Of a stretch of 36,885 nucleotides of DNA, positions 747 to 24,282 are shown in pieces. The notes under the pieces were generated by a model, which was not told the origin of the DNA, did no database searches, and saw only the letters and a program-made list of their open reading frames with translations. The first letter of the stretch is position 1, and every line of letters begins with the position of its first letter. The DNA comes from Candidatus Fermentibacterota bacterium. GTDB taxonomy: Bacteria; JAFGKV01. The stretch lies in NCBI GenBank assembly GCA_030620115.1, contig JAUXFG010000020.1:1-36885 (forward strand), read 5' to 3'. Made by a program: the position numbers and the translations under genes.

Positions 747-947
747 ACCCGGATTTCTCATCCCGCGTCCGCCGCGGGACTGCAGTCCCGCGTCTGACGC
801 GGGACAGAGGATACGCCTCCGGGCTTCGCCACGGCGGAGCCAGGCTACGCCCTGACAGAGCCGGGGTCCTCAGTCGCAAGCCTCGCATCCAGAACCCCGC
901 GTCCGACGCGGGACTTCGCCACGAAAGCCGATGAGAAGTCCGGGCTC
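747..947. repeat. Palindromic element family A (long copy)
   Basis: The element begins ACCCGGATTTCTCATC and ends GATGAGAAGTCCGGGCT, so its termini are inverted repeats of each other. The interior holds several GTCCCGCG/CGCGGGAC palindromes and a GCTTCGCC/GGCGGAGC segment. The same termini recur at 9242, 18098, 19069 and 21719, with truncated copies at 16871, 21990 and 24239. At 201 bases this is the longest copy. No coding capacity. It resembles a MITE or REP/BIME-type element; mobility is inferred, not shown. Confidence 0.75.
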
Positions 948-1020
948 GCCTTGATATTCGGGAATATAGAATGAAATGGGATGGGAAGAAAAGCGAAATG
1001 CTGGAATGCTGGAGTGAAGA

Positions 1021-1122
1021 GAGATTCTTCGCTCCTTGGAGTCGCTCAGAATGACAAAGGCAGCTGGCATTGGACGTGAAGAAGCGTGTCATTCTGAGGG
1101 AGCAGAGCGACCGAAGAATCTC
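1021..1122. repeat. Inverted pair of GTCATTCTGAG repeats
   Basis: Bases 1088-1122 read GTCATTCTGAGGGAGCAGAG followed by CGACCGAAGAATCTC. Bases 1021-1055 carry the reverse complement of a close variant. Together they form an imperfect inverted repeat with a 32-base spacer. A third copy is at 8002-8035, inside the broken hdrB. Similar sequences are common interspersed repeats in many environmental genomes and are often mistranslated as protein. Confidence 0.8.
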
Positions 1123-1214
1123 GGTGGGGAAGGGGATGATGGAACGAGAATCAATGCGAAATGCCGGGATGTGTGATGGTGAATTGATGAATCTGAGAAT
1201 GGGGGAATGCGCGA

Positions 1215-1637
1215 ATGAAGAGTATGCCTGACGCCAAAAACAACCGCACGAAACCCTGGGATGATGACCCTTTGGGTTTGGGGCGGATTGACTCGGATCG
1301 CGCGCTTCTAACTCAGTTCGATGCAACGGCGGAAGAGCTGGGCCAACGGCTCGAGACTTTGTGGCACAAGGCTCGCAAGACCACGGACGAGGAATACGAG
1401 CCTGCGCCGGGTATCACGATTCGCGTTGAGGAGTATGGAGGCCGTATCTCCTGCTCGTTCGGACACTCCGGGTCATACGCCAAAGGGCGCATGATGGTGA
1501 TCACACAAGATTTGCGACTCTCCATCTCTCCTCTTTCCATACATATGATCAAGAGCCATGGCTTCTTTGGCGGCAGAGGGAGCCCCCACCGAATCGAACC
1601 CAACCAGATCGTCCGCCTCCTCCGCTCAATCCCCTAA
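1215..1637 (+). CDS. Hypothetical protein, 140 residues
   Basis: I do not recognise a family. The product is soluble, with an acidic-aromatic N-terminus (Trp-Asp-Asp-Asp-Pro-Leu-Gly-Leu), a helical segment around residues 33-60, then a probable beta-rich part and a Gly-rich stretch (Phe-Phe-Gly-Gly-Arg-Gly) before a C-terminal helix. No signal peptide or membrane segment is visible. The start is uncertain: ATG codons lie at 1215 and 1224 and neither has a strong ribosome binding site. The gene sits directly after a repeat block and 88 bases before the Rrf2 regulator, on the same strand. Base composition looks coding, but it could be a remnant. Confidence 0.5.
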   Translation: MKSMPDAKNNRTKPWDDDPLGLGRIDSDRALLTQFDATAEELGQRLETLWHKARKTTDEEYEPAPGITIRVEEYGGRISCSFGHSGSYAKGRMMVITQDLRLSISPLSIHMIKSHGFFGGRGSPHRIEPNQIVRLLRSIP

Positions 1638-1678
1638 CCCGTATTACACTTGACCGGATGATTTTCCTTCCCATACTG

Positions 1679-1717
1679 TTGCGAGAATAGTCTAGTAAAC
1701 CTATGGATTTAGTGGGG
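1679..1717 (+). promoter_or_regulatory. Putative promoter and operator of the Rrf2 operon
   Basis: TTGCGA (1679-1684) and TATGGA (1702-1707) are separated by 17 bases, a plausible sigma-70 type pair. The -10 lies within an imperfect palindrome, TAAACC-TAT-GGATTTA (1696-1711), the kind of overlap expected if the Rrf2 protein represses its own promoter. A GTGGGG ribosome binding site follows at 1712-1717. A 19-base stretch of this region (1691-1709) recurs with one mismatch at 25043-25061. The reading is by eye. Confidence 0.4.
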
Positions 1718-1725
1718 TATTAACC

Positions 1726-2136
1726 ATGATCACGACAAAAAGCAGATATGGCATGAGAGCCATGGTCCAGATTGCTAAGGAGTACGGCGAAAGTCCGGTG
1801 TCGATAGACGACATCGCGCAGGAGCAAAGCCTCTCCGATTCCTATCTTTTCACGGTGATGAGCATACTCAAGGCTGCAGGGCTCGTGCGAAGCGTGCGCG
1901 GTCGCGATGGCGGCTATGTCCTGCGAAGGCGTCCGTCGAAGATTACGGCCTTGGATATAGTGACCGCCCTGGACGGCCCGCTCTCAGAAGTTCCCTGCAT
2001 TGAGGCTCCAGGCTCGTGCACCCGTGAACAGAGCTGCGAAACCAAGCGCCTGTGGGAGGCAGTCCACGGAACCATGGCCAGCGAGCTCAGACGGTTCACT
2101 TTGGCTGATCTGCTCAAAGAAGGCGAGCGAGACTAG
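1726..2136 (+). CDS. Rrf2 family transcriptional regulator (IscR-like, three Cys)
   Basis: This 136-residue protein has the Rrf2 winged-helix plan: N-terminal Thr-Lys-x-Arg-Tyr-Gly-x-Arg-Ala, a recognition helix region around residues 27-50 (Ile-Ala-x-Glu-Gln-x-Leu-Ser-Asp-Ser-Tyr-Leu) and the wing Gly-Arg-Asp-Gly-Gly-Tyr (59-64). Three cysteines at 91, 98 and 104 match the spacing used by IscR-type members to bind an iron-sulfur cluster, so it probably senses Fe-S or redox status. It is the first gene of a plus-strand run with larE 30 bases downstream. Regulation of larE-mnmA is inferred from position. It lacks the usual iscS/iscU partners nearby, so I do not name it iscR. Full length for the family. 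Confidence 0.9.
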   Translation: MITTKSRYGMRAMVQIAKEYGESPVSIDDIAQEQSLSDSYLFTVMSILKAAGLVRSVRGRDGGYVLRRRPSKITALDIVTALDGPLSEVPCIEAPGSCTREQSCETKRLWEAVHGTMASELRRFTLADLLKEGERD

Positions 2137-2166
2137 CCCGACAAAACGCGGAATAGGCACGACGAA

Positions 2167-3033
2167 ATGACACCGGAACGAGGAACTGTCCCGTTTTCCC
2201 CACCTCCGGAGGCCGTGACCACGAAATATCAGATGCTGGTGGATCGACTCAAGGCTATGAATAAGGTCCTCGTCGCCTACTCTGGCGGAGTTGACAGTAC
2301 CCTCCTGCTTGCTGCCGCTGTTGAGGCACTTGGCCATGACGCTCTTGCAATCACGATTCACTCCCCCCTGCATTCCATGCGCGAGATCAAGAAGGCCGAG
2401 GATAGAGCTCGCAAACTCGGCGCACAGCACATGACTGTACATGTCGATCTTCTCTCGGATCAGGACATTCAGGCGAACGAGCCCGATCGATGCTACTTCT
2501 GCAAGACAACGCTGTTCACTCATCTCAAAGAGCTTGCCGCGAAGGGGAACCTCAATGTCGTGGTAGAAGGAAGCAACGTCAGCGACTTGGATGATTTCAG
2601 ACCAGGCCTGAAGGCAATCAGGGAGCTCGGCATACACAGCCCGCTTCGGGAGGTGGGATTTTCCAAGGATGAGATCCGGACTATGCTCAAAGCCAAGGAG
2701 TTCCCAGGCTGGGATGACCCTTCGAACTCGTGCCTTGCTGCACGCATCCCCTATGGAGAGGAGCTGTCGTACGAGAGCTTGGCCCGAATCGAGGCAGCCG
2801 AGGAGGCGCTGCACGAGCTTGGGTTTCGCCTGGTGCGCGTACGGCATCACGGTCCTGTGGCTCGCATTGAGCTATCCCAAGAGGAGATCAACAGAGCGGC
2901 TATTGACCGAACGCGCCGGAAAATCGTAGGCGCGCTCACCCGCGCGGGCTTCCAATATGTCTGCCTCGATCTCCAAGGATACAGAACAGGCTCCATGAAT
3001 GAGTTGCTCGATCGCGCGTCGAGCCGCGAATGA
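2167..3033 (+). CDS. larE: ATP-dependent sacrificial sulfur transferase LarE
   Basis: LarE adenylates and thiolates the nickel-pincer nucleotide precursor of lactate racemase and related enzymes. The 288-residue product shows the PP-loop Ser-Gly-Gly-Val-Asp-Ser at 39-44 and the family motif Glu-Gly-Ser-Asn-x-Ser-Asp around 134-140. Cysteines at 109, 112 (Cys-Tyr-Phe-Cys) and 189 (Asn-Ser-Cys-Leu) correspond to the three-cysteine LarE type that binds a [4Fe-4S] cluster, rather than the single sacrificial cysteine type. The first 20 residues are Pro-rich and atypical, so ATG 2233 is an alternative start. It overlaps mnmA by four bases (ATGA). No larA, larB or larC is in the window, so its substrate may be different here; that is inference. 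Confidence 0.9.
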   Translation: MTPERGTVPFSPPPEAVTTKYQMLVDRLKAMNKVLVAYSGGVDSTLLLAAAVEALGHDALAITIHSPLHSMREIKKAEDRARKLGAQHMTVHVDLLSDQDIQANEPDRCYFCKTTLFTHLKELAAKGNLNVVVEGSNVSDLDDFRPGLKAIRELGIHSPLREVGFSKDEIRTMLKAKEFPGWDDPSNSCLAARIPYGEELSYESLARIEAAEEALHELGFRLVRVRHHGPVARIELSQEEINRAAIDRTRRKIVGALTRAGFQYVCLDLQGYRTGSMNELLDRASSRE

Positions 3034-4148
3034 CTACCGCGGTGGTGGCCATGAGCGGCGGGGTTGACTCCAGCGTGGCCGCGGCGCTCATGATGGACGC
3101 GGGGTATCGCGTAATCGGCGTGACGCTTGATTTCTCCGGCCTCGGGCAGCCAGGAATCCCCAGTGATCGCGACTCCAATGACCGCAGTTACTCTGTTGGC
3201 TCTGCAGTCTTCGACGCCGCGGCCGTAGCCAAGAGACTAGGTTTCGAGCATCGAGTCCTTCACGCCACAGAACCGTTCTGGGAGCATGTAGTACAACCCT
3301 CCATCGATGCGTATCAGGCAGGACGGACCCCGAATCCGTGTCTACGCTGCAACCAGTCAATCAAGTTCGGATACCTCCTTGAACAGGCATGCCAGTGGGG
3401 CGCAACGGTGATCGCTACGGGGCACTATGCTCGGGTGGATAAGTCAGCGGACGGAGTTCCTCTCCTGCTCAGAGCAGTCGACAAGACCAAGGATCAGAGC
3501 TATGTGCTTTTCATGTTAGTGGCAGACGAGCGGTTGGCGCACATTCACTTGCCCCTCGGTGGTTTGACAAAGCCACAGGTGCGCAAGATTGCCGAAGAGC
3601 GCGGACTCCCCTCCGCCTCAAGGGGAGAAAGCCAGGACCTCTGCTTTCCACTCAAGGAATTTCTTCCCGACGCAGACGGTACGATCGTGGACACCTCTGG
3701 TCTCGTGCTTGGCACGCACCGCGGGATCAATCACTTCACCATCGGGCAACGCCAGGGATTGGGCGTTGCCTCATCACGCAGATTGTACGTCGTCGAGCTC
3801 CGGCCGGAAACCAACGAGGTGGTCATAGGGCCAGATGAAGCCCTTTTCAAACGCTGCGCTTCGATCAGCTCCTTCTTCTGGACACCCACACAGCCACAGC
3901 GACCAACACATGTCATGGCAAAGATCCGATACAATCACGAACCTGCCCCCGCCACCATCGTTCCAGGGAATGGAACTGCCATCATCGAATTCGAGAAGCC
4001 ACAACGGGCCATCACACCCGGGCAGGCAGCCGTGTGCTACATCGGCGAACAGGTCCTCGCCGGAGGCTGGATTGATTGTGCGTTCGATCCGGAACAGAAA
4101 GGAGAAGGTCCGTATTCGGGGATGTTTCAGGACAGGCCCTTCGACTGA
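3030..4148 (+). CDS. mnmA: tRNA-specific 2-thiouridylase MnmA
   Basis: MnmA adds sulfur to C2 of the wobble uridine in tRNA-Lys, -Glu and -Gln. The 372-residue product begins with the PP-loop Met-Ser-Gly-Gly-Val-Asp-Ser-Ser, followed by Asn-Pro-Cys-Leu-Arg-Cys-Asn (first catalytic Cys region), Ala-Thr-Gly-His-Tyr-Ala-Arg, Asp-Gln-Ser-Tyr-Val-Leu-Phe, and Glu-Ser-Gln-Asp-Leu-Cys-Phe (second catalytic Cys). The C-terminal beta-barrel motif Gly-Gln-Arg-x-Gly-Leu-Gly is present. Its length is normal. The start codon overlaps the larE stop, so the two PP-loop sulfurtransferases are almost certainly co-translated. A 200-base gap separates it from fhs. Confidence 0.96.
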   Translation: MTTAVVAMSGGVDSSVAAALMMDAGYRVIGVTLDFSGLGQPGIPSDRDSNDRSYSVGSAVFDAAAVAKRLGFEHRVLHATEPFWEHVVQPSIDAYQAGRTPNPCLRCNQSIKFGYLLEQACQWGATVIATGHYARVDKSADGVPLLLRAVDKTKDQSYVLFMLVADERLAHIHLPLGGLTKPQVRKIAEERGLPSASRGESQDLCFPLKEFLPDADGTIVDTSGLVLGTHRGINHFTIGQRQGLGVASSRRLYVVELRPETNEVVIGPDEALFKRCASISSFFWTPTQPQRPTHVMAKIRYNHEPAPATIVPGNGTAIIEFEKPQRAITPGQAAVCYIGEQVLAGGWIDCAFDPEQKGEGPYSGMFQDRPFD

Positions 4149-4348
4149 GCTCCATTCGGCAGGCCCATGACTGGAAGCAGGACAGGCCGGGAAGTGGCTT
4201 ACACTTTCGGAACCCTCCTCGCAATGACTGCGGGCGGGATCACGGTTCCGGGATCTCTCTCCGAGATGCTGTATTCCTATCTTGAGCCGTAGTGCGAGGC
4301 CGAGACCGTAAAGCGAGAGAATGAAATGACCCCATGAAAGGAGCAAAG

Positions 4349-5992
4349 ATGAGCCAGATCGGAGGCATTCGGCCTATAATGGAGGTGGCAAGGGACCTCG
4401 GTATCGACCAAAACCATGTGACGCTCTATGGCAATGACAAAGCAAAGATCAGTCTCAAGGCGAGGGATTCCGGCAGAGAACCCGGAAAACTGGTTCTCGT
4501 TTCGGCCATTACACCCACACCGGCAGGTGAGGGGAAGACCACCACATCCATTGGCCTTGCGCAAGGCTTGGCCAAGGCTGGACAGAAGGTCTGTCTTGCG
4601 CTTCGGGAGCCCTCTCTCGGTCCCACCTTTGGGGTCAAGGGAGGCGCCACAGGGGGTGGCCGCTCTACCCTCTATCCATCCGATGAGATCAACCTCCACT
4701 TCACCGGTGACATGCACGCAGTAACCACGGCACACAACCTTCTTGCCGCCATCCTGGACAACCATATTCACCAGGGTGATGAGCTCGACATTGATCCCCG
4801 GCGTGTCCTTTGGGGACGTGTCGTTGACTTGAATGATCGTGCGTTACGCCATGTGGTGATCGGTTTGGGCGGCGTGCTTCAAGGGGTACCAAGAGAAACC
4901 GGGTTCGACATCACCCCAGCCTCGGAGATCATGGCAACGCTCTGCCTCGCTGAGGACTATGACGATCTCCGCGCCCGGCTTTCCCGTATCATCATTGCAC
5001 AGACATTCAAGAGGGAGCCCATCACTGCGGCGGATCTCAAGGCGGTGGGCGCCTTGATGGTCATACTCAAGGATGCACTGCAACCCAATCTTGTGCAGAC
5101 ATGCGAGGGAGTTCCCGCGTTCGTGCACGGCGGCCCCTTTGCCAACATTGCCCATGGGTGCAACTCCGTCATTGCGACGAAGATGGCCATGGCATATGCC
5201 GATTGGACAATAACCGAGGCCGGATTCGGCTTCGATCTGGGGGCTGAGAAGTTCTTCGATATCAAATGCCGATACGCGGGTCTCGACACCGCATCCGTGG
5301 TCCTTGTTGCCACCATACGTGCGCTGAAGATGCACGGCGGCGTGAAAAAGAAGGAGCTTACCGAGCCCAATGCACAAGCAGTGGAAGCCGGGCTCGCGAA
5401 TTTGCAGAAACACATCGAGAGCATCCAAACCTTTTGCGAACCACCGGTGGTGGCTCTCAATCGCTTTGAAGCGGATACGGAGGACGAAATCGAAGTGGTC
5501 CGGCGGTTCTGCGCTACCTTGGATGCACCGTTCGCCGTGTCCGACATTTTTGCCCACGGAGGCGATGGTGGTTTGGATTTGGCTGATGCAGTCATGAGCT
5601 ACTCGGAGAAAAAATCGAAACCATTCTGTCCGCTTTACGAATGGTCCGAGCCCATCAAACACAAGATCGAGAAGGTGGCACGCCTCATGTACGGCGCCCG
5701 AGAAGTGGAGTATGACAAGGCAGCGGAACGCGCCATCAGGAAAATCGTCAAACTTGGCTATGGGGATCTTCCCGTCTGTGTGGCCAAGACGCAGAGCTCC
5801 CTGTCAGATGATCCAAAGAAGATTGGGCGCCCCGAGGACTTCGAGATCACGGTTCGTGACGTGATCCTGGCTGCAGGCGCAGGCTATGTGGTACCAATGC
5901 TTGGCGAGATCCTGCGCATGCCCGGCCTCCCCCCGTCCCCTCAGTCCGAAAGGGTCGATCTTGTGGACGGCAAGGTCGTGGGACTGAGGTAG
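4349..5992 (+). CDS. fhs: Formate-tetrahydrofolate ligase
   Basis: The enzyme makes 10-formyl-tetrahydrofolate from formate, THF and ATP, feeding purine synthesis or the methyl branch of the Wood-Ljungdahl pathway. The nucleotide-binding loop Thr-Pro-x-Gly-Glu-Gly-Lys-Thr-Thr is near residues 58-65, followed by Leu-Arg-Glu-Pro-Ser-Leu-Gly-Pro-x-Phe-Gly-x-Lys-Gly-Gly-Ala and His-Phe-Thr-Gly-Asp. The length, 547 residues, is typical. I prefer ATG 4349 over 4334 because AAAGGAG (4337-4343) sits five bases before it. The adenosine deaminase family gene begins 13 bases after the stop, suggesting an operon. No other Wood-Ljungdahl genes are in the window. Confidence 0.95.
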   Translation: MSQIGGIRPIMEVARDLGIDQNHVTLYGNDKAKISLKARDSGREPGKLVLVSAITPTPAGEGKTTTSIGLAQGLAKAGQKVCLALREPSLGPTFGVKGGATGGGRSTLYPSDEINLHFTGDMHAVTTAHNLLAAILDNHIHQGDELDIDPRRVLWGRVVDLNDRALRHVVIGLGGVLQGVPRETGFDITPASEIMATLCLAEDYDDLRARLSRIIIAQTFKREPITAADLKAVGALMVILKDALQPNLVQTCEGVPAFVHGGPFANIAHGCNSVIATKMAMAYADWTITEAGFGFDLGAEKFFDIKCRYAGLDTASVVLVATIRALKMHGGVKKKELTEPNAQAVEAGLANLQKHIESIQTFCEPPVVALNRFEADTEDEIEVVRRFCATLDAPFAVSDIFAHGGDGGLDLADAVMSYSEKKSKPFCPLYEWSEPIKHKIEKVARLMYGAREVEYDKAAERAIRKIVKLGYGDLPVCVAKTQSSLSDDPKKIGRPEDFEITVRDVILAAGAGYVVPMLGEILRMPGLPPSPQSERVDLVDGKVVGLR

Positions 5993-6005
5993 ATCAGGAA
6001 ACCCC

Positions 6006-7097
6006 ATGAGCTCGGATGCCGCGTTCGGGAGACAGATCGCTCGTTTCCCCAAGAGCGAACTCCATGTCCATCTCAGAGGTGCGATGTCCATTGGCATCTT
6101 CACCGAGCTCCTGAATAAGTACGCTTCCCAGGAGCCATGGCGGCATGCGTCGAAAGCCGAACGAAGGCTGTTCGAGAGATTCGAGAATATCCGCCCTTTC
6201 CTTGTCCCGCGGGAATGGTCGGCTGAGGCAGCACGTCCTTTGTTCCACTACGAGAGCTTCGATCAGTTCATTGCCACGTGGTGCTTCACCGGCTACTTCG
6301 TCCGCGAAAAATCCGATCTCCGTATGATCATACGAGGGGTGCTCCAATCGCTCAAAGAGCAGCATATCGTGTATGCGGAAATCACGACCTCTCCCACTGA
6401 GTACCTCCGGCAGGGAATCACGCTGCCGGAGATTATAGAGTGTGTTGAAGAAGCCAAAGGCTTTCCGGGAATTGAGGTCCAATGGATCGTGGATCCGGTC
6501 CGAGATAACGGCGCGGACGCGGCGCGTTGGCTCATTGAGCGGATCATGGAAATCGGCAGCGACTCCGTCGTTGGTTTGACGCTGGGGGGGAGTGAATACC
6601 TGTTTCCCCCTGCGCTCTTTGTTGATGTGTATCATTTCGCCAGAGACCACGGCCTGCGTCTCTCCATTCATGCGGGAGAGGTTTTGGGACCGGAGAGCAT
6701 TTGGGACGCAATAAACATTCTTGGTGCGGAACGCATCGGTCACGGCGTGAGAGCAGTTGAAGATCCTTCGCTAGTCGCGCATCTGGCTGAACACAGAATC
6801 CCTTTGGAGGTGTGCCCCACCAGCAATCTCCGGATCGGAATCTGTGATTCCTACCAGGACCATCCTGCACGCGAGCTCTTCTTGGCCGGCATCCCCATAA
6901 CCATCAATAGCGATGATCCGACGTTCTTCGACACCACGCTCATGGATGAATTCGTCCATCTGCGATCCGCAGGATTCGAGGACCAGGATATCCGATCCAT
7001 CCTCAGGAGCGGATTCATTCATTCATTCCTGCCAAAGGATCGTATCAGTGAATACCTTGACGATCTTGATCGAGAGTGGAAAGAATCTGGAATCTAG
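6006..7097 (+). CDS. Adenosine deaminase family protein
   Basis: A metal-dependent amidohydrolase that removes an amino group from adenosine or a related 6-aminopurine. All expected metal and catalytic positions are present in the 363-residue product: His20 and His22 (Glu-Leu-His-Val-His-Leu), His222 and Glu225 (His-Ala-Gly-Glu), His246 (Arg-Ile-Gly-His-Gly) and Asp303-Asp304 (Ser-Asp-Asp-Pro). No signal peptide, so cytosolic. The start is supported by AGGA seven bases upstream. It follows fhs by 13 bases, which suggests a shared transcript and a role in purine salvage. The family also includes adenine deaminase and aminodeoxyfutalosine deaminase; motifs alone do not decide, although a menA-like gene elsewhere in the window keeps the futalosine option open. 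Confidence 0.88.
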   Translation: MSSDAAFGRQIARFPKSELHVHLRGAMSIGIFTELLNKYASQEPWRHASKAERRLFERFENIRPFLVPREWSAEAARPLFHYESFDQFIATWCFTGYFVREKSDLRMIIRGVLQSLKEQHIVYAEITTSPTEYLRQGITLPEIIECVEEAKGFPGIEVQWIVDPVRDNGADAARWLIERIMEIGSDSVVGLTLGGSEYLFPPALFVDVYHFARDHGLRLSIHAGEVLGPESIWDAINILGAERIGHGVRAVEDPSLVAHLAEHRIPLEVCPTSNLRIGICDSYQDHPARELFLAGIPITINSDDPTFFDTTLMDEFVHLRSAGFEDQDIRSILRSGFIHSFLPKDRISEYLDDLDREWKESGI

Positions 7098-7204
7098 AAT
7101 GTGAAATCTGGAATCTGTTAATCTGGAATCTAGCCGTCTTCAATAGGTTGGAAACTTTACAAACGAGTCAAGTTTTGCGACGACATATGTGGGTTGGCTG
7201 CGAG

Positions 7205-7362
7205 GCGATGCCGGTTTCTGGATGCTTGATGCTGGAAGGAGAACGGAACGATCCGGTCCCATCATCCAGTATCCAGTGACCAGCAACCAGCAACCAGTAT
7301 CGCTGCGCCTCAATCAATGCGCGACGGCATGATCGCTCGTCGGTTTGAGGCGCAGCTTCGCT
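7205..7362 (+). repeat. Dispersed repeat X, copy 2
   Basis: This is the second copy of the repeat at 480-619, in opposite orientation, with identical 31-base blocks at each end. It forms a hairpin of its own: GCTGCGCCTCAA (7303-7314) pairs perfectly with TTGAGGCGCAGC (7346-7357). It ends ten bases before the hdrC remnant, so the repeat seems to mark the breakpoint that removed the upstream part of that gene. The stretch 7098-7204 between the deaminase stop and this repeat holds short ATCTGGAATCT tandem repeats and no gene. Confidence 0.8.
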
Positions 7363-7371
7363 AGAGAGTTC

Positions 7372-7440
7372 ATGAAAGATATTGGTCTTGGAATCAAGAT
7401 GCTTAGGAAAGGCAAGCTAAATCTCCTTCAGGGCTGTTTT
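7372..7440 (+). pseudogene. Possible hdrC C-terminal remnant
   Basis: Starting at ATG 7372, about 20 codons read Lys-Asp-Ile-Gly-Leu-Gly-Ile-Lys-Met-Leu-Arg-Lys-Gly-Lys-Leu-Asn-Leu-Leu before a TAG. This resembles the C-terminal tail of HdrC-type [4Fe-4S] subunits (a Gly-x-x-x-Leu-x-Lys-Gly-Lys-Leu pattern). HdrC normally lies directly upstream of HdrB, which is what follows. The match is short and judged by eye, so it remains tentative. Confidence 0.4.
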
Positions 7441-7453
7441 TAGCTGCCTCGGA

Positions 7454-8059
7454 TTGAAATTGGGAGAGATCAAGGACTGGACATGCTGCGGTACATCCGC
7501 TGTGCATAATGTTTCCCATCTCGCAGCTATCGCTCTTCCAATAGACAATCTGGTGGCCTACCGGGATGAAGGTTTCACCAACGTCGTCATTCCGTGCGTT
7601 TCATGTTTTCAGCGCTTCAAGGTAGCTGACTACGAGATGAAACGTGACCCGGAGATTCGCAAACGTGTTGAGGAGGTGATCGGAACCAGCTACGGAGGAG
7701 AGGTGGAAATCCTCCACCCCCTGAGCGTTCTGTCAAGCGACACCCTCCTGGAGCGAATTCAGGCAGAGACAAGACGGGATCTCTCTGAATTGAGTATCGC
7801 TTGCTATTACGGTTGCCTTCTTGTTCGTTCTCCAAAGACGATGAACCTTGATGAAGCAGAGTATCCCGTCCTAATGGACGAAATCCTCCAGGCAGCCGGG
7901 GTCAATACACTTGATTGGTCCTATAAAACCGATTGCTGCGGTGCCGCATTCTCACTTACCGAAACTGACGTTGTTTTTTGCATAAGCATGTGGTGCTATC
8001 TGTCATTTCTGAGGGAGCAGAGCGACCGAAGAATCCAGGTGGAGGGATTGCTTGAATGA
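7454..8059 (+). pseudogene. Truncated HdrB-like (CCG domain) heterodisulfide reductase subunit
   Basis: HdrB subunits carry two cysteine-rich CCG domains that bind the non-cubane Fe-S clusters of heterodisulfide reductase. Here the first domain keeps Asp-Trp-Thr-Cys-Cys-Gly and Cys-Val-Ser-Cys, and the second keeps Cys-Tyr-Tyr-Gly-Cys and Asp-Cys-Cys-Gly. The usual N-terminal 30-40 residues with the first cysteine are missing. The frame upstream (from about 7445) still reads Cys-Leu-Gly-Leu-Lys-Leu, as an HdrB would. At the 3' end the protein stops matching after about 7975; the last 25 or so residues are translated from a GTCATTCTGAG-type repeat, and the final Cys-x-x-Cys is lost. With repeats at both ends, this is a decayed gene. 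Confidence 0.8.
8002..8035 (+). repeat. GTCATTCTGAG-type repeat, copy 3
   Basis: The sequence matches the repeat at 1088-1122 with one inserted T. It lies inside the open frame of the hdrB remnant and supplies its artificial C-terminus (Phe-Leu-Arg-Glu-Gln-Ser-Asp-Arg-Arg-Ile). It therefore marks the 3' breakpoint of that gene. Confidence 0.8.
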
Positions 8060-8221
8060 TAGAATACTGGGTTGTGAGAATCGGAATCTGGGGGTTTCTT
8101 CTCTCTGAGATCCATCGTTCCAACATTCCATTCACCCCTTCTGCCATAAGGCAGATCGAAGCATGATCCGGCTCAGAAGACACCGCATGCCAAGAGTTGT
8201 GGGATTTCGGAGACGACACAT

Positions 8222-8824: not shown

Positions 8825-8950
8825 AGCCCACGGAGAGACTTGTTTTTGACACTTCTCAATAAGTCCGTGCATCCAGCCTTTCCCCCTTTTTCGAAGCTGA
8901 CAGCAGAACACACTTAACACCGGGACCATTCTCTCATCCACAGCATCCTC

Positions 8951-9085: not shown

Positions 9086-9241
9086 GACGAAGGATGAGGA
9101 CATTGGCGGTCATAATCATTCTCGCCATTCGGCTCGAGCTCATGGGCAGTACGCGGGACTGCCGCGTCGCTTCCCTCCTCGCAGTGACTATCGTTGGATA
9201 GACGCAACGGTTTCTTCTTCTCTCCCTCGTCATCAAGATTG

Positions 9242-9314
9242 GCCGGGACTTCTCACCGGCTTTCGGAGCGAAGCGGCCCCGCGGCCGACGCGGGATCGGT
9301 GAGAAATCCGGGCT
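9242..9314. repeat. Palindromic element family A
   Basis: The 5' end GCCGGGACTTCTCACC and the 3' end GGTGAGAAATCCGGGCT are imperfect inverted repeats, with a CCCCGCGGCCGACGCGGGA palindrome between them. The layout matches the other copies in this window. Intergenic, no ORF. Confidence 0.75.
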
Positions 9315-9523
9315 AGAAGTTCTGGGGCAAGCCCGGCCTCATGAAATCGGTTACATGACATGACCCGATAACCTATCTTGTGGGTTCTCGATCTGTATCC
9401 CACACCGGGCGCCAAAGAGAATTTCCGCCGCGAATGGGGATGAGTCGCCGCCCGATGCCGATCCCTGCGTGGGATCACGTGTGGAATTTGCCACCTATTC
9501 GTCAAAGAACCGAGGAGCATAGA

Positions 9524-16837: not shown

Positions 16838-16870
16838 CGCTCAGCTAGTGCTTTGGTAGATCGGAAAATC

Positions 16871-16960
16871 TAACCCGCATTTCTCACCAACGCTCGTCGT
16901 CTGTCCCTGCCTGTCCTGCCTGCCCTGAGCACGTCGAAGGGAGCGTAGTCGAAGGGAGCC
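16871..16960. repeat. Half copy of element A plus GTCGAAGGGAGC repeats
   Basis: Bases 16871-16888 read TAACCCGCATTTCTCACC, the left end of element A. The matching right end is missing. Next come CTGTCCCTGCCTGTCCTGCC and two copies of GTCGAAGGGAGC (about 16934 and 16948), a common interspersed repeat type. No gene lies between 16838 and 17026. Confidence 0.6.
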
Positions 16961-17026
16961 TACCCGTCTCGAGCAAAGCCGAGGAACCGAAGGGCGAGAT
17001 GGTGGAGATGCTCACGAGGTTTCATC

Positions 17027-17980: not shown

Positions 17981-18288
17981 CCTGAAACCTCGTCGATTGA
18001 GGCCGGAGTTCGCAATCTTTGATCGGAGGTCCATATCGCCCCTCAATCCTGCAACCATGTCCATCCCTGGACCGATAGTGGTCATTCTCGGATATGAAGC
18101 CCGGACTTCTCACCGGGCTTTTGTAGTCCCGCTGCAGACACGGAACTATTCCAGCAGGAAGATGGTGAGAAGTTCGGGATAGGTATGTCCATCGCGGCAG
18201 CACACATTTCGTTTCTGTACTCACATGGCCATTGTTTCCCAACCTGAAAGGCATTTCGATTCGCGAGTCCACAGCTTCGGAAACGGCG
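17981..18288. other. Intergenic region
   Basis: No gene is visible in these 308 bases. They contain a family A element (18098-18181) and otherwise unremarkable sequence before the minus-strand gene remnants that follow. Confidence 0.6.
18098..18181. repeat. Palindromic element family A
   Basis: Starts AGCCCGGACTTCTCACC and ends GGTGAGAAGTTCGGGAT. The interior (GTCCCGCTGCAGACACGGAAC) is a degraded form of the GTCCCGCG/CGCGGGAC core seen in other copies. It lies downstream of menA. Confidence 0.75.
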
Positions 18289-18714
18289 CTATGTGAAATC
18301 CTCCCAGCTGCAAATCTTCTTGAACTCGCCATCGAACCACTCGCTGTTGCTAAAATGTGCCGGTGTTGTCATTTCGACATCCGTTCGCTCGAAGTCCGCG
18401 ATAGCCTCAGCTGACCATTTTTCCGGGTTCAACTTGTTGAAGAGACGGAGGAAGGAGGAATCATCATCTTCCTCAAGCGTCTTCCTTGGCTTCTCCAGTA
18501 TGGCTCGCACTGAGGTAGAACAAACCATCTGCTTTCGTGAGAATTCAAACCACCTAATCCTCTTAACGTGGTCATATCCTAGAAGGCTGCTGATGGCAAA
18601 GTCCAGAAGATCACCGGCATCCTAAGGATGCCCGAGGAAATCCTCTGCCGCCGTGCGCATGATTTGGATATGCCTTTCAGTATATTCCTGTTTTGTATAT
18701 CCACGGAATTTCAT
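18289..18714 (-). pseudogene. Remnant of a permuted papain-like (YiiX/C40-type) hydrolase
   Basis: Reading the minus strand from ATG 18714 gives 141 codons to a TAG at 18289, with one in-frame TAG at codon 31 (18622-18624). The frame continues well past it: Tyr-Thr-Lys-Gln-Glu-Tyr near the start, Leu-Leu-Asp-Phe-Ala after the stop, then Lys-Gln-Met-Val-Cys-Ser-Thr-Ser-Val-Arg-Ala and Thr-Thr-Pro-Ala-His-Phe. This resembles the C-terminal half of permuted NlpC/P60 or YiiX-type amidases, where a Cys-Ser segment follows the membrane-like helix and a Thr-Pro-x-x-Leu segment comes near the end. The N-terminal catalytic part is absent. Family call is by eye. Confidence 0.45.
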
Positions 18715-18745
18715 GGTAAACAACTACCCCTAAAGCCCACCAGAT

Positions 18746-18889
18746 CTAAGTGACCAGTCGGCGATCTACCCCTTGAGCAACTAACCGCCGGATGGTCTCG
18801 AAAGAGAGGAATGTCTTGCCTGATCGTCGAACTCCCGCCAAACCGACTATTTTGCCCGTTCCTGTCGGCAGAATTAGTCTCCCCCATGT
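18746..18889 (-). pseudogene. Fragment of an AAA_14/DUF4143-type ATPase
   Basis: On the minus strand a 45-codon open stretch reads Gly-Lys-Ile-Val-Gly-Leu-Ala-Gly-Val-Arg-Arg-Ser-Gly-Lys-Thr, a P-loop, followed by an Ile-Arg-Arg-Leu-Val-Ala-Gln-Gly-Val-Asp helix, then a stop. The Gly-(Val/Pro)-Arg-Arg-(Ser/Ala)-Gly-Lys-Thr loop followed by Leu-x-x-x-x-Gly-Val-(Asp/Pro) is typical of AAA_14 ATPases with a C-terminal DUF4143 domain. The rest of the gene is missing. Just upstream on this strand is a GGTGGGCACGG...CCCCTACATGGGG segment of the GGGCACGG palindromic repeat type, a likely breakpoint. Confidence 0.55.
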
Positions 18890-19068
18890 AGGGGTATCCG
18901 CCAGCTGGCGGACCGTGCCCACCGGAGGCTGGATGAAGATGGGATGTCGAAATGTGGATTATTTCTGCGCGAGCCCTAAGTTCCTGGGTTAGCTGTATCA
19001 TTCAGAAAGGTAATGGTTTTTCTGATTCTTTCTCACGACGCGTGTGCGCGGTCGCATGTCCAATTGCT

Positions 19069-19137
19069 TAACCCGGACTTCTCACTGGCTGTCGAAGCGA
19101 AGTCCCGCGTCGGACGCGGGATGAGAAATCCGGGTTA
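19069..19137. repeat. Palindromic element family A (compact copy)
   Basis: This 69-base copy is the cleanest. It begins TAACCCGGACTTCTCACT, has the core AGTCCCGCGTCGGACGCGGG, and ends ATGAGAAATCCGGGTTA. The outermost eight bases are perfectly complementary. It ends 24 bases before the sulfatase-fold gene. Confidence 0.8.
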
Positions 19138-19161
19138 GTCTGGTGACTCAGGAACATACCT

Positions 19162-21546
19162 ATGGCAAAAAGACATCTTGGCAGTAATCCACGCGTACCA
19201 CTGCTGGGTGAAAGCAGATTCCATGCGCCCCGGGGACAGCGGTATTTCCAGAGCATGCTGAAGACGGTGTTGGCGTGTGCATCGTGTCTGCTCAATGCCT
19301 GTGCCGGCCCACAACCATCCTTCGTCGGTCTTCTTGACCAGATCACCGACGGCGAACCGACCGGAAGCTGGAACGTTGTTGTAGAGGCTGTTGGACAACC
19401 CGCAGTCCGTTCCCTCATAAAGCAGAGCCATGGGATGAAGAACGAGCCCCGGGATAGTGGGCAATCTGTCAGGTCCTTGATCCCCATTTCCGCTTCAATT
19501 GAGGCCGGTGGAAAGATTTTCGTTAGGTTGACATCCCAAAAACCGTGGAAGGACGAAGGTAGTCTTGTCATCCGGCTAAGAGGCACGACCGGGAAAACAG
19601 TGAGCAAAACGATAGTACTAAAAGGGCGAAATGTGGAGTGTCTCCTTCCAGTACCGCTCACCGGTGCTGACGGTTTTGAGGTTGAGCATCTCGCCGAATC
19701 GAACACCGGGCTCAACTTGAACTCTCTTGTGGGCATTTCGGTTGGCGCCGAGGCCGATTCCATTCAACTTGCCAGAGCACGGATTTTTCTTGGATGGCTC
19801 GCAGAAGATAGATCAGGCAACGCCAGTTCAGGCTGTCGTTACAGGAAGTTTCCGGTCTCTTCGGACGGATGTACACGGTCTGGTGTTGCCTTGGTTACGG
19901 GCGATACATTGACGTTTGACATGCCTACCAAACTGAGTGAATCATGTTTTCGATTCTGGGCACTCGGGCTTAAGCACGGTACGGCATGTCAGACCGCCAC
20001 CCTGACATTGGAGGCAAGAACTCGACGAAGCTGGCGGAAGGTTGATTCATGGGAGATCACCAATAAGGACATTTCTCATTGGCGTGAGTTATCCGTTAAC
20101 ATCTCGGCATTCCCGAGAAATGCCAGTGCCGTTCGTTTTGTTCTTTTGGGAGACAGCTCACTCCTGGCGGTGTGCGAGCCTATGTTTTTTCGTGGATCAT
20201 CAGCGACATCCAAGAAGTTGAACCTGATTCTCATCATCCTCGATACCCTGAGAGCAGGCAGATTGGGTTGCTATGAGTATACTGAACGCCCCACTTCAGG
20301 AAGACTAGATTCACTGCTCGAGGCAAAAGGTTTTTTTCTGTTCAAGAAGGCATATTCTCCGGCACCGTGGACTCTTCCCGCGATATCCAGATTCCTAACT
20401 TCGAGATATCTCAATGCTTGTGGAGCCGCGGATGTTCCCCTTGAGAGCGAGACGCTTGCCGAGATCCTCAGGGCCAATGGGTACTATTGCGCAGGATTCA
20501 CCGGTGGCGGGATACTGCGTTTCGCCGGGTTCGAACAAGGCTTTCACGAATACCACTGGCCCGACGTTGCGTATGGAAAGATTGAGCATTCTTTTCCCGA
20601 AGCAAAGGCATGGATGTCGGGGGAACATCCTACGCCATTCTTTCTTTTCCTACATACGTATGAGACCCACATGCCATACACAAGAGACGTTTTCTGTGAA
20701 GGACTTCCTCACGGCCGGCTGGGTGATCTCTCAGTGGGAGAGCCCCTCGTGCCGAAAGGTTTCTCGATCTGCACAAACTTGAGCAAAGAAGAAAGCACAT
20801 ACGTCCAAGCAGCTTATGACGGAGGAGTCAGGACGGCTTGTGATGCGGCAGCGGAGTTTCTCCTCAATCTGAGCCGGTCGGGGTTTTGGGAAAATACGGT
20901 GGTTGTCATCTTGAGCGATCATGGGGAGGAGTTCTGGGACCATTCCACTGTTTTCGCCGAGCATTCCTCGACTTCTTTGTACGATGAACTCCTTCATGTG
21001 CCGTTCATGCTCTATACTCCTAATCTATCGAACAAGGGCATCAGGGAAGTGGAGTCGGAAGTGAGCATCGTCGACTTCCTACCGACTGCTGTGGAACTGC
21101 TGGGTCTCCCCTTCCGACATGCCGGCGATGGTATGAACCTTCAGCCACTGCTGAACAGCGAAACCTTGGAGAGGCGGATCCCAATTCTGGCACTTGATTT
21201 GCCTGAAGGAGAGCGATGGCCGTCAAAGGCGTGCGTCTTGTCTCAAGAAATCAAATATGTGGAACCGATTCATAGCAAATACTGGGCATCAAAAGAGATA
21301 AAGAAGCCGTGTTGGTATTATCCGGCAACTACTGAACTGTTCTTGCTGGACGAAGATCCCGCCGAGAGACACAACCGAGTGAGCGAAGCTCCTGAACTGG
21401 TGGCTCAGATGGCGTCTCTTTTGAGGGAAGGGCTCAGTTTGTCGCAAAAACCGAACCTGGGTGATACGGATCGTACTGAACCTCGGGCTATCTCTGCATC
21501 CCTGAGCAAACAACTGCGCGCGTTGGGTTACATAGGGGCACCGTGA
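19162..21546 (+). CDS. Sulfatase-fold hydrolase/phosphotransferase, probable lipoprotein
   Basis: The C-terminal 450 residues of this 794-residue product form an alkaline phosphatase superfamily sulfatase domain. Metal ligands are visible as Asp361 (Leu-Asp-Thr-Leu-Arg) and Asp586-His587 (Ser-Asp-His-Gly-Glu-Glu). At the nucleophile position the sequence is Trp-Thr404-Leu-Pro-Ala, so the residue is Thr, not the Cys/Ser of the formylglycine motif Cys-x-Pro-x-Arg. That favours phosphoglycerol-transferase-like or other non-sulfatase chemistry. The N-terminal 330 residues are beta-rich with no family I recognise. An in-frame ATG at 19255 gives a short lipoprotein signal (Leu-Leu-Asn-Ala-Cys), so the true protein may start there (763 residues) and be anchored to a membrane. 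No strong ribosome binding site separates the two starts. Confidence 0.82.
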   Translation: MAKRHLGSNPRVPLLGESRFHAPRGQRYFQSMLKTVLACASCLLNACAGPQPSFVGLLDQITDGEPTGSWNVVVEAVGQPAVRSLIKQSHGMKNEPRDSGQSVRSLIPISASIEAGGKIFVRLTSQKPWKDEGSLVIRLRGTTGKTVSKTIVLKGRNVECLLPVPLTGADGFEVEHLAESNTGLNLNSLVGISVGAEADSIQLARARIFLGWLAEDRSGNASSGCRYRKFPVSSDGCTRSGVALVTGDTLTFDMPTKLSESCFRFWALGLKHGTACQTATLTLEARTRRSWRKVDSWEITNKDISHWRELSVNISAFPRNASAVRFVLLGDSSLLAVCEPMFFRGSSATSKKLNLILIILDTLRAGRLGCYEYTERPTSGRLDSLLEAKGFFLFKKAYSPAPWTLPAISRFLTSRYLNACGAADVPLESETLAEILRANGYYCAGFTGGGILRFAGFEQGFHEYHWPDVAYGKIEHSFPEAKAWMSGEHPTPFFLFLHTYETHMPYTRDVFCEGLPHGRLGDLSVGEPLVPKGFSICTNLSKEESTYVQAAYDGGVRTACDAAAEFLLNLSRSGFWENTVVVILSDHGEEFWDHSTVFAEHSSTSLYDELLHVPFMLYTPNLSNKGIREVESEVSIVDFLPTAVELLGLPFRHAGDGMNLQPLLNSETLERRIPILALDLPEGERWPSKACVLSQEIKYVEPIHSKYWASKEIKKPCWYYPATTELFLLDEDPAERHNRVSEAPELVAQMASLLREGLSLSQKPNLGDTDRTEPRAISASLSKQLRALGYIGAP

Positions 21547-21718
21547 GATCTTTGCCCATTGATCGATTCTTGCGTTCACGATTCGCGGTCGACCCAACGA
21601 ACAGCGAAGACACATATGTATCACGCTGTAACTGACAGGGTCTCCTACCATTCTGCATGGGACGCCGGCACCGACTGTCAGGGAGTCAGTCTCCGATTCT
21701 TCGGAGACAACAAGCACC

Positions 21719-21866
21719 TAACCCGGACTTCTCACCGGCCTTCGTCATGAAATGGTTGAGATGGCATTGCCCGCAAGGCTTGCGACCGAGGCCGGCCGCA
21801 GGCGTATCCTCTGTCCCGCGTCTGACGCGGGACTGCAGCCGGAAGCTGGTGAGAAGTTCGGGCTAA
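21719..21866. repeat. Palindromic element family A (148-base copy)
   Basis: Begins TAACCCGGACTTCTCACC and ends GGTGAGAAGTTCGGGCTAA. The interior includes GTCCCGCGTCTGACGCGGGAC and a GAGGCCGGCCGCAGGCGTATCC stretch partly shared with the long copy at 747-947. It lies between the sulfatase-fold and GH97 genes. Confidence 0.75.
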
Positions 21867-21989
21867 GCTATTTCGAGGATTCTGCGAGTGAGGATCGATC
21901 AAAGGTGACCTAAAGATGAGATGTCAGAGTGTTAAGGTTATTCCTGGACATGCCCTAATAATGCGGACATTGTCATATCGGCTGCTGCA

Positions 21990-22018
21990 GCCGAAGGTTG
22001 GGGAGAGATCCGGGTTAG
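21990..22018. repeat. Right-end fragment of element A
   Basis: GGGGAGAGATCCGGGTTA matches the right terminus of family A with a few changes. No matching left end is seen. It ends 30 bases before the GH97 start. Confidence 0.5.
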
Positions 22019-22047
22019 CCGCGAACTGAACAATAGGGAGTGAATCC

Positions 22048-24081
22048 ATGAGAATCATATCGCTTATGCTTCTGTGCGGAATCTTTGTTCAAATCTCTCC
22101 AGGCCAGGAGTATGCCGTGACATCCCCCCTTGGCATCGTAACGGTGTCATTCATGTTGCAGGACGGCGCACCGTACTATCAGGTCACCCGGTTCGGAAGA
22201 GAGGTTATCAACCCATCGCGGCTCGGTTTCATTCTGGAAGATGCGCCGCTGCTGGCCGACGGGTTTCACGTGGCATCCTGTGATACGAGCCATTTCGATG
22301 AGATCTGGACACAACCCTGGGGCGAGAAGAAAGTGATTCGCAATAGCTACAACGAACTACGCATCAATCTAGTCGAGATTTCCGCGCCCAAGCGAACCAT
22401 GGCTATCGTGTTTCGTGTCTTCGACGATGGCATCGGGTTTCGCTACGAGATTCCGGAACAGCCTTCGCTCAACGACATCGAGATTCTGGATGAATTGACC
22501 GAATTCGCTTTGGCTGGAAACCACCAGGCTTGGTGGATTGGGGCGTATTGGTGGAACCGGTACGAGTACCTCTATCAACAATCGCCCATCAGCAAGATCG
22601 ATATGGTTCATACGCCGCTTACCATAGAGACGGAAGATGGTCTCTACCTGAGCATTCACGAAGCAGCTCTCACCGATTTTGCCAGCATGACCCTGATGCG
22701 GAAGGATGGCAATGTCCTGAAGGCGGATCTCGTTCCGTGGTCAGACGGCATCAAGGTGAAAACCTCGACTCCGATGCATTCACCCTGGCGAACGGTCCAG
22801 ATAGCCGACACCCCGGGTGGTCTGATCACCTCATATCTCATTCTCAACTTGAACGAACCAAACAAGCTCGGCGATGTTTCCTGGGTGAAACCAGGCAAGT
22901 ATATCGGCATCTGGTGGGAGATGCACTTAGACAAGTCTACGTGGGGATCCGGGCCTCGACACGGCGCGACAACCGCCAACGCAAAGCGCTATGTCGATTT
23001 CGCGGCGGTTCATGGCTTCGATGGCGTTTTGGTTGAGGGCTGGAACGTCGGCTGGGATGGCGACTGGATCAAAAACAGCGACAAATTCCAGTTCACCACG
23101 CCCCATCCTGACTTTGATATCGTGGAGGTGACCAGCTATTCGGCAGATAAGGGTGTCCGTCTGATCGGTCATCATGAGACCTCCGGTGGGATCTCCAACT
23201 ACGAGCGTCAAATGGCCGATGCATTCGCTTACTACGAGCGTTTGGGAGTTCGAGCGGTTAAGACAGGGTACGTCAATCACGGTCAAGGCATCAAGCGACT
23301 CGATGAGAATGGAAAGGCTCAAGGTGAATGGCATCACGGCCAGTTCATGGTTCGGCACTACCGAAAGGCGGTAGAAGAAGCCGCCAAACACCATCTCATG
23401 CTTGACGTGCACGAGCCGATCAAGGACACGGGCATCAGGCGTACCTATCCGAATATGATGACACGAGAAGGCGCTCGCGGTCAGGAGTTCAACGCGTGGG
23501 GGCCCAAAGGGGGAAACCCACCCGAGCATACGACAATCCTTCCGTTTACTCGACTCCTCTCCGGACCCATGGATTTCACGCCCGGCATCTTCGACCTGCT
23601 CTTGGAAGACCATCGGCCCGACAACCGTGTCAACACCACGCTTGCGAAGCAGTTGGCCCTCTATGTTGTGCTCTACAGCCCACTGCATATGGCCGCTGAC
23701 CTGTCGGAGAACTACGAGGCACGACCGGAGCCATTCCAATTCATTGTCGACGTGCCGACCGATTGGGAAGACACCCGTGTTCTCAATGGTCGTATTGGCG
23801 ATTATGTGATCATTGCACGGAAAGACAGGAACAGTGATGACTGGTATCTGGGAAGCATCACTGACGAGGAGGGACGTGTGCTGGAGGCACCGCTGCGCTT
23901 TCTCGAATCGGGCACGCAGTATATGGCCGAGATCTATCGTGATGGGCCGGCTGCGGACTGGGAGAGCAGTCCGTACGATATTGAAATAGAGCATATCCCG
24001 GTTGACAATGCGACGACCCTCCAGCTTCGGTTGGCGCCTGGCGGCGGGCAGGCGATTCGGTTCGTAGCCGCTGGCGACTAG
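22048..24081 (+). CDS. Glycoside hydrolase family 97 (alpha-glucosidase/galactosidase-like)
   Basis: GH97 enzymes cleave alpha-linked glucose or galactose from oligosaccharides, normally in the periplasm. The 677-residue product has a signal peptide (to about residue 20), an N-terminal beta-sandwich, a TIM barrel and a small C-terminal beta domain. Diagnostic motifs are Gly-Ile-Trp-Trp-Glu-Met-His-Leu, Gly-Trp-Asn-x-Gly-Trp, His-Glu-Pro-Ile-Lys-Asp-Thr-Gly-Ile-Arg-Arg-Thr-Tyr-Pro-Asn-Met-Met, and Arg-Glu-Gly-Ala-Arg-Gly-Gln-Glu. The Glu in His-Glu-Pro is the pattern of the inverting SusB-type branch rather than the retaining branch. GGGAG precedes the ATG. No SusC/SusD pair is nearby, so it is not in an obvious utilisation locus. 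Full length. Confidence 0.93.
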   Translation: MRIISLMLLCGIFVQISPGQEYAVTSPLGIVTVSFMLQDGAPYYQVTRFGREVINPSRLGFILEDAPLLADGFHVASCDTSHFDEIWTQPWGEKKVIRNSYNELRINLVEISAPKRTMAIVFRVFDDGIGFRYEIPEQPSLNDIEILDELTEFALAGNHQAWWIGAYWWNRYEYLYQQSPISKIDMVHTPLTIETEDGLYLSIHEAALTDFASMTLMRKDGNVLKADLVPWSDGIKVKTSTPMHSPWRTVQIADTPGGLITSYLILNLNEPNKLGDVSWVKPGKYIGIWWEMHLDKSTWGSGPRHGATTANAKRYVDFAAVHGFDGVLVEGWNVGWDGDWIKNSDKFQFTTPHPDFDIVEVTSYSADKGVRLIGHHETSGGISNYERQMADAFAYYERLGVRAVKTGYVNHGQGIKRLDENGKAQGEWHHGQFMVRHYRKAVEEAAKHHLMLDVHEPIKDTGIRRTYPNMMTREGARGQEFNAWGPKGGNPPEHTTILPFTRLLSGPMDFTPGIFDLLLEDHRPDNRVNTTLAKQLALYVVLYSPLHMAADLSENYEARPEPFQFIVDVPTDWEDTRVLNGRIGDYVIIARKDRNSDDWYLGSITDEEGRVLEAPLRFLESGTQYMAEIYRDGPAADWESSPYDIEIEHIPVDNATTLQLRLAPGGGQAIRFVAAGD

Positions 24082-24238
24082 ATTGGTCATGCGAAGGCGA
24101 TTCTGACAGTGTGCAAGAAGGGTAGAGAGTCATGGTATGAACCCTCGAGAGAGTCTCTCTACGACGGTCGTGAGATGAAAACGCTGAACTCAAGGAAGTT
24201 GATCTCATTCATCGAAGTATCTGGAAGCCGATAGAGCG

Positions 24239-24282
24239 TAACCAAGTCCCGCGGCTGACGCGGGATGAGAAGTTCGGGTTAA
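24239..24282. repeat. Truncated palindromic element family A
   Basis: TAACC is joined directly to AAGTCCCGCGGCTGACGCGG and then GATGAGAAGTTCGGGTTAA, so the left TTCTCA segment has been deleted. It abuts the AAGGAG ribosome binding site of the next gene (24281-24286). Confidence 0.7.

Follow-up and report, generated by a model that had tools for sequence, protein, structure and literature searches.

A small transposable element with IS1380-type ends and a conserved, probably RNA-level core in a Candidatus Fermentibacterota genome and in other bacteria

The contig JAUXFG010000020.1 of a Candidatus Fermentibacterota bacterium (assembly GCA_030620115.1), a stretch of 36,885 nucleotides analysed over its whole length and called the window below, carries scattered small palindromic sequences with common ends, for which a first-pass annotation had suggested either a miniature inverted-repeat transposable element (MITE) or a REP-type repeat. 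With good confidence, these sequences can be assigned to a non-autonomous transposon that would be moved in trans by an enzyme of the IS1380 type and that would carry a conserved, strand-specific core, probably acting at the RNA level. The copies in the window are mostly eroded short derivatives, and the most unusual features of the element are found outside it.

That the sites are copies and decayed derivatives of a MITE is well supported by the sequences at their borders. The ends are inverted over about 20 bp (RCCCGGAYTTCTCACCGGCTTTC) and adjoin a YTAR target, mostly CTAG, which is duplicated over 4 bp. Among other genomes, the left and right 4-mers are identical in 24 of 44 non-redundant pairs (four of these pairs being complete insertion sequences, IS), as against 10.5 ± 2.2 when the pairings are shuffled; no comparable excess is seen at lengths 2, 3, 5, 6 and 8. 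The shuffle was used as control because the pattern by which these pairs were fetched demanded YTAR on one side. The signal is weaker in the Fermentibacterota genome, with identical 4-mers in 10 of 52 pairs versus 4.0 ± 1.8 after shuffling and a slight excess at length 5 (p 0.04). Empty sites were also observed. Among 12 candidates, five match the copy's own flank and one (77% identity) is doubtful; the six that were kept give an ungapped paralogous empty site, with 4 bp dropped, for 6 of 74 paired copies, and four of the six lie inside other copies of the family. The clearest case is the copy L026:16899-17075, which has GTAG/GTAG flanks and an empty counterpart at positions 809-883 of the window (97% over 75 bases); the five others have decayed flanking 4-mers. 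Thus, the target duplications and empty sites that the first-pass annotation had proposed to look for do exist, and its MITE alternative is borne out by dispersal, inverted ends, 4-bp duplication, empty sites and a cognate IS in other genomes.

The TA dinucleotide is the most constant part of the YTAR target, a property that would suit an IS630/Tc1-mariner-type MITE with a TA duplication, like RUP or CREE. Such an origin is scarcely credible: flanks match in excess at length 4, not 2, and the cognate IS is an IS1380. It was rejected on the 4-bp duplication and on the absence of any DDE_3 (PF13358) match in the Fermentibacterota genome.

Dispersal is extensive. Over the 4.1 Mb of the genome, termini with at most one mismatch number 737, as against 40 for a reversed control pattern, and exact termini, searched with a slightly narrower pattern, 443 versus 0; the family is thus far from confined to the window. 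In a sample of 343 kb, 122 termini (at most two mismatches) form 37 inward-facing pairs within 450 bp, the commonest pair length being 177 bp (8 of the 37). Copies span 45 to about 420 bp. A covariance model built from 32 copies including their ends (the full model), to which this genome and genome G037 supplied sequences, finds at least 145 matches of any length here, with 150 of 2159 candidates scored. The 12 full-length Fermentibacterota copies in the model set have a mean identity of 78%, which fits an old burst. These copies look old and orphaned.

The probable mobiliser was recognised in other organisms. A search of public genomes for the end together with YTAR returned at least 111 stretches, and among the 80 of them listed, three Nannocystis species and Richelia intracellularis show end pairs spaced by about 1.75 kb. 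From Nannocystis, two intact proteins belong to the IS1380 family of transposases (PF13701, E about 1e-149; one also NF033539, 4.7e-113); the Richelia copy is a fragment (PF13701, 4e-42). Over 25 transposase loci, the end is present on both sides in nine (two of which are IS already seen in the end-pair search), on one side in six and on neither in ten. Furthermore, genomes G256 (L248) and G400 (L249), which have variant ends, show a matching end beside an IS1380 remnant, with no full-model match in the locus; this is suggestive only. A matching end next to a transposase remnant of G309 was discarded, as it belongs to a copy of the element (L253). For the Fermentibacterota genome itself we infer, rather than observe, an IS1380-type DDE transposase. 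It does encode a distant DDE protein of 579 amino acids at the end of contig C122 (L009:12-1751; IS1380 35.8 bits for a cut-off of 180), and the family ends were not found in the 2.2-kb locus of this protein.

The REP half of the earlier suggestion, namely REP/BIME-type repeats moved by a Y1 (RAYT) transposase, fares differently. Four Y1 genes do occur in the genome, the palindrome modules of the elements resemble REPs and single element ends are found close to the L010 and L011 Y1 genes. However, none of the four Y1 genes is flanked on both sides by element ends within its 3.3-kb locus (for three, one end is present), two of them bear ends of their own (GGGGTCAG..), and the 4-bp duplication and the DDE transposase found between family ends in other genomes designate an IS1380 partner. 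A Y1-driven origin is therefore highly improbable. The two Y1 transposases with their own ends (L010:907-1872 and L011:1471-2445; 321-324 amino acids) have a DnaA-like C-terminal helix-turn-helix; the domain match of L010 is below cut-off.

The second part of the argument concerns the interior. In its full-length form of about 177 bp, the element has an interior that is recognisable with the ends removed in Gammaproteobacteria, Acidobacteria, Eisenbacteria, Planctomycetota, Myxococcales and others. A profile of 26 Fermentibacterota interiors, trimmed of 20 bp at each end and of the 4-bp flank, matches 21 of 58 elements from other genomes and 0 of 580 mononucleotide shuffles, four of an initial 62 elements having been dropped with interiors of 20 bases or less. 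Its best matches are in an Acidobacteria bin (3.1e-19) and an Eisenbacteria bin (2.5e-14), followed by Sedimenticola, other Gammaproteobacteria and G037. The full model matches 25 of 386 genomes in a domain-wide set at E ≤ 1e-4; one of the 25, G307, is matched by a 64-base copy only and fails when the ends are removed. When 28 genomes were probed deeper with the full model, the number of matches per genome, whatever their length, ranged from 2 to 86 among the candidates scored (at most 95 in each).

Since ends alone score up to 57 bits in the full model (core-less Fermentibacterota copies of 56-58 bases with flanks reach 55-57 bits), an ends-free profile and an ends-free covariance model were made as a check. 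The test set comprises 45 extracted copies, the partial matches L210, L213, L216 and L217 being left out. The sequence-only profile of the 32 model interiors recovers 23 of these 45 copies, in 11 of 21 genomes, versus 0 of 540 shuffles and 0 of 22 core-less MITEs. With the ends-free covariance model, 22 of 23 test genomes show the core (one locus each), 20 of them at E ≤ 1e-4 and always on the expected strand, and none of 19 control loci with core-less MITEs does. Matched loci include four in Planctomycetota (L123, L142, L136 and L092, 2.5e-6 to 7.8e-5), two in Myxococcales (L061, 1.1e-8; L145, 0.003) and one each in a Deltaproteobacteria bin (L073, 7e-7), in Gammaproteobacteria (L045, 3.9e-12) and in a Gemmatimonadetes bin (L131, 5.5e-4). 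Length is nearly constant, 40 of the 45 test copies measuring 181-187 nt including the 4-bp flanks; the model set was picked at 170-184 bp and its own lengths are no evidence of a fixed length. For the copies compared, mean identity within other genomes is mostly 0.83-1.00 (0.67 in G090, 0.72 in G246), versus 0.51 between genomes, as expected if separate bursts of a shared element had occurred. Plasmids and phages searched with one Gammaproteobacterial copy gave no match, and in viral contigs an end pattern was hit 10 times, with a weak model match (20 bits) in one case.

This interior folds as one long imperfect hairpin, and its pairs covary. The consensus fold of the 32 copies reaches -65.0 kcal/mol on the sense strand, with 47 pairs of which 23 show compensatory changes, as compared with -25.6 kcal/mol and 25 pairs on the opposite strand; ribosum scoring narrows the gap (-122.7 versus -104.7). 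In the sense structure, 93.8% of the cells are paired, against at most 43.5% for slid structures, and 161 cells carry double changes, against 56 ± 6 in 500 shuffles. A sequence-only alignment of the test copies retains the inner 24 pairs in 77% of the cells that can be scored (782 of 1017), versus 31-41% for slid structures, and shows new double changes in the basal and apical helices.

The strand preference is likewise consistent: it is the sense strand that gives the better fold in 35 of 35 and in 45 of 45 copies (44 of 45 on a trimmed alignment). A sequence-only profile including the ends detects 43 of the 45 test copies and agrees on the orientation of all of these. An earlier count of G-U against A-C pairs (146:22) was biased, since the fold itself permits G-U and a structure derived from the antisense strand is likewise richer in G-U than in A-C. 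For this reason, the comparison relies on strand-neutral pairs, chosen without G-U on either strand. On the sense strand these give 90 G-U versus 31 A-C in the model set and 115 versus 65 in the test set, G-U exceeding A-C in 22 of 28 genomes, falling below it in three and equalling it in three. From this we infer that the selected form would be single-stranded, most likely RNA, whether a transcript of the element or a read-through product. A protein-coding role was considered and set aside: copy lengths differ by non-multiples of three, and in an alignment that drops insertions 40 of 77 copies leave one antisense frame open. Comparison with Rfam 15 found nothing in the window, nothing in six loci that hold copies and, up to E 10, nothing for one copy. 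That a folded core recurs in very different bacteria suggests that it does something and is not junk.

Several observations weigh against a conserved RNA-level core moved by an IS1380 enzyme. In the test set, pairing in the central helices 4-7 is poorly conserved, copies share descent so that strand and G-U counts are not independent, and 30 elements that have the same ends but are unmatched by the own-interior profile also show a strand difference (5.5 versus 9.2 kcal/mol per 100 nt), although some of these 30 are matched by the ends-free model. The structure model itself served to find the test set, and one genome of the set, G037, had also supplied a sequence to that model. Without the ends, sequence alone misses 22 of the 45 test copies, as well as eight of nine named Planctomycetota, Myxococcales and other copies tried; these named copies rest on sequence plus structure (E 1e-12 to 0.003), and the L057 copy was not found. 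As to the mobiliser, PF13701 is over cut-off in 25 of 50 end-bearing genomes versus 1 of 14 controls, a co-occurrence that is partly circular since the end may belong to an IS. A profile search of its contigs found no IS1380 transposase over cut-off in the Fermentibacterota genome, where target duplications are mostly decayed, and such a transposase is present in just 9 of the 24 other genomes with model matches, the mobiliser being absent or unseen in most.

Considering these points, one may envisage an ordinary IS1380 MITE, whose interior would be a fold-back palindrome, whose covariation would result from template-switch correction during replication and whose transcript nothing would act upon. 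The whole element is indeed an imperfect palindrome, core-less elements with the same ends are also strong hairpins, orientation to genes shows no clear bias and the central helices drift. However, template switching is not expected to produce a strand preference with a G-U excess on strand-neutral pairs, and this account is also opposed by interior homology between phyla without the ends, by near-constant length and by the retention of the core behind different ends. It is thus considered rather unlikely, and the family is probably an IS1380-type MITE with a conserved core acting at the RNA level.

Ends and core appear separable. In some genomes the core stands behind different ends, for example in G309 (GAGCCAATTGCAAAATTATG) and G405 (TGGCCTGTATTGG), and in G246 and G101 the main end is present in modified form. 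Conversely, two Fermentibacterota loci with different flanks (L030:17447 and L185:560) hold core-less 48-bp copies of identical sequence, and similar 94-bp derivatives are found at three loci. Because the identical 48-bp derivative is present twice, movement probably does not require the core in cis, identical independent deletions being the alternative, and the ends seem sufficient. The core was not found in the IS copies searched (L071, L084, L108, L148-L160) nor, with the ends-free model, in seven IS1380 loci (L060, L071, L084, L108, L148, L150, L153). The core resembles a passenger that was retained and that contributes to the persistence of the element. It may be imagined that an IS1380-type DDE transposase cuts and inserts the element in trans, and that this enzyme has since been lost from the Fermentibacterota genome or is missing from its assembly. 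The core would be kept as a single-stranded hairpin, most likely of RNA, with compensatory changes preserving its pairs. As a first guess, it could be a double-stranded substrate of an RNase III-type enzyme making insertions tolerable, as is proposed for NEMIS elements in the sections of PMC2229807 that treat them. In a more far-reaching version, tentative though possible, the element would be a mobile noncoding RNA: the structured core of about 140 nt, homologous across several phyla, would be the selected unit, and the IS1380-type ends would be exchangeable according to the transposases of each host.

The genomic context bears on yet another explanation, that of host regulatory hairpins, terminators or structured leaders, conserved in place. 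Of the 62 Fermentibacterota copies that could be placed (18 of 80 at stretch ends were dropped), 57 lie outside genes called with simple callers made for this analysis, despite a coding fraction of 72%, and three sites in the window are near start codons. On the other hand, there are hundreds of dispersed sites with target duplications and empty sites, and between 18900 and 24500 of the window no terminator-like site was found at the copies, the numbers being as in shuffles. Relative to neighbouring genes, called with such callers too, the element runs in the same direction in 120 cases and in the opposite one in 103, without clear bias (p 0.28); for the downstream gene only, the ratio is 44:24 in the Fermentibacterota genome (p 0.02, uncorrected) and 19:24 in other genomes. 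Regulatory hairpins fixed in place are accordingly very unlikely. Among copies in other genomes, 17 of 70 lie within stop-to-stop frames of at least 150 codons (13 with the element sense opposite), the frames being defined by length alone.

Within the window, the terminus CCCGGACTTCTCA has 14 matches with at most two mismatches, against a mean of 1.09 (maximum 5) over 100 shuffles. The eight sites previously taken as elements with shared termini (Table 1) hold up in part: five are paired copies (outer ends at 748-944, 9243-9312, 18100-18178, 19072-19134 and 21722-21862) and three are one-ended remnants, with ends at 16874-16886, about 22002-22018 and 24266-24278. Among these three is the supposed 44-base copy. 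The end at about 22002-22018 is too degenerate for the two-mismatch search and was recovered in a repeat comparison of the window. Two further unpaired matches, at 45 and 11652 (two mismatches each), are probably due to chance.

Table 1. Sites of the element family in the window (positions and strand refer to the 36,885-nucleotide stretch)
Site	Positions	Strand	Basis
Paired copy, 4-bp flanks; most of the core replaced or expanded by CCCGCG palindrome modules	744..948	-	Terminus pattern; full covariance model, 33.1 bits on - strand; fold z -6.3
Paired short derivative with deleted core, 70 bp between outer ends	9239..9316	+	Terminus pattern; full model, 47.4 bits
One-ended remnant with left end CTAA + CCCGCATTTCTCACC; right end not found	16870..16889	+	Terminus pattern
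Paired short derivative, 79 bp	18096..18182	+	Terminus pattern; full model, 35.8 bits
Paired short derivative, 63 bp, flanks TTAA/TTAG; 23 bases before sulfatase ATG	19068..19138	+	Terminus pattern; full model; Pfam scan
Best window copy: both ends, flanks CTAA/CTAA, partial conserved core, 149 bp	21718..21866	+	Full model, 83.6 bits; ends-free model, 28.8 bits at 21742-21842; fold z -5.8
One-ended, degenerate right end GGGGAGAGATCCGGGTTAG; 29 bases upstream of GH97 gene	21988..22018	+	Repeat comparison; Pfam scan
One-ended remnant: palindrome module + right end TGAGAAGTTCGGGTTAA; 12 bases upstream of 67-aa ORF	24239..24282	+	Terminus pattern

Two other features reported from the sequence alone are confirmed. 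Copies do differ in size through internal palindrome modules GTCCCGCG..CGCGGGAC. Three sites end less than 35 bases before a gene, the element borders 19138, 22018 and 24282 preceding the start codons ATG 19162 (sulfatase), ATG 22048 (GH97) and GTG 24295 (67-aa open reading frame, ORF), respectively. As to transposases, PF13701, PF01797 and IS1380 are unmatched on the contig of the window (C110), and no transposase was found among the 10 window ORFs scanned against Pfam. Besides lying within many elements, the GTCCCGCG..CGCGGGAC modules are free-standing at 25923, 27780 and 30248, and look as if a separate tiny repeat had inserted into the elements.

Other repeats were noticed. A second dispersed family, with different ends (AGGGYTCGCGCAGGAATAACTTCACA) and a length of 183-218 bp in four copies, has sites at 27749 and 29695 of the window and at L027:4814-5027, L031:11327-11543 and L214:806-988. 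Its apical hairpin CCTCGACGTAGCYTGGRCTACGCC (L027, L214) resembles the core. The sequence-only profile of the first family gives no match to it; the ends-free model matches the apical part of the L214 copy with 37 bits. The window also contains repeats of 82 and 96 bases (families D1 and D4) between 25908 and 30404, inverted repeat arms of 51, 45 and 27 nt (92-96% complementary) some 6.7 kb apart, at 480-615 and 7206-7363, and a 36-base repeat (TTCTGAGGGAGCAGAGCGACCGAAGAATC..) in two copies 94% alike, at 1092-1127 and 8007-8042.

The usual view of MITEs is that they arise by deletion from one local insertion sequence and do not last long. The present interior has a nearly fixed length and strand-specific covariation, is shared by several phyla and persists behind differing ends. 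These properties point towards a function for the interior of a MITE, one that can now be tested. At the same time, IS1380 elements gain a large non-autonomous family; searches of the open-access literature listed no description of such an element or of this family, and a full-text search with six end strings returned one string in one unrelated paper (on goat sperm). With IS1380 insertion sequences (PF13701, NF033539), the element shares terminal repeats and 4-bp YTAR/CTAG flanks, as seen in Nannocystis, Richelia and other genomes; unlike them, it is small and gene-less, and the IS copies searched are without the core. A 4-bp target of TTAA type and ends often starting with CCC are described for the piggyBac superfamily in the parts of PMC10813416 concerned, a study in which IS1380 served as outgroup, but piggyBac elements are eukaryotic and the target of the present element is mostly CTAG. 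High copy number, palindromic structure and intergenic location recall the REP elements with RAYT transposases (see PMC2817692), from which the element differs by its inverted ends with target duplication and by the lack of Y1 association. In the pages of PMC2229807 devoted to bacterial MITEs, ERIC, CREE/NEMIS and RUP are likewise shorter than 200 bp and present in high copy, with inverted ends, a target duplication and a hairpin RNA. Most MITEs described there end in TA, and the single mobiliser named is IS630, for RUP; on these descriptions, the present element is set apart by its 4-bp target, its IS1380 partner and a core found in several phyla. Finally, the CIR repeats of Caulobacter and Brucella, as portrayed in the same pages, resemble it in having an RNA secondary structure conserved between genera, and differ, by description, in being two-armed and in carrying a GANTC motif.

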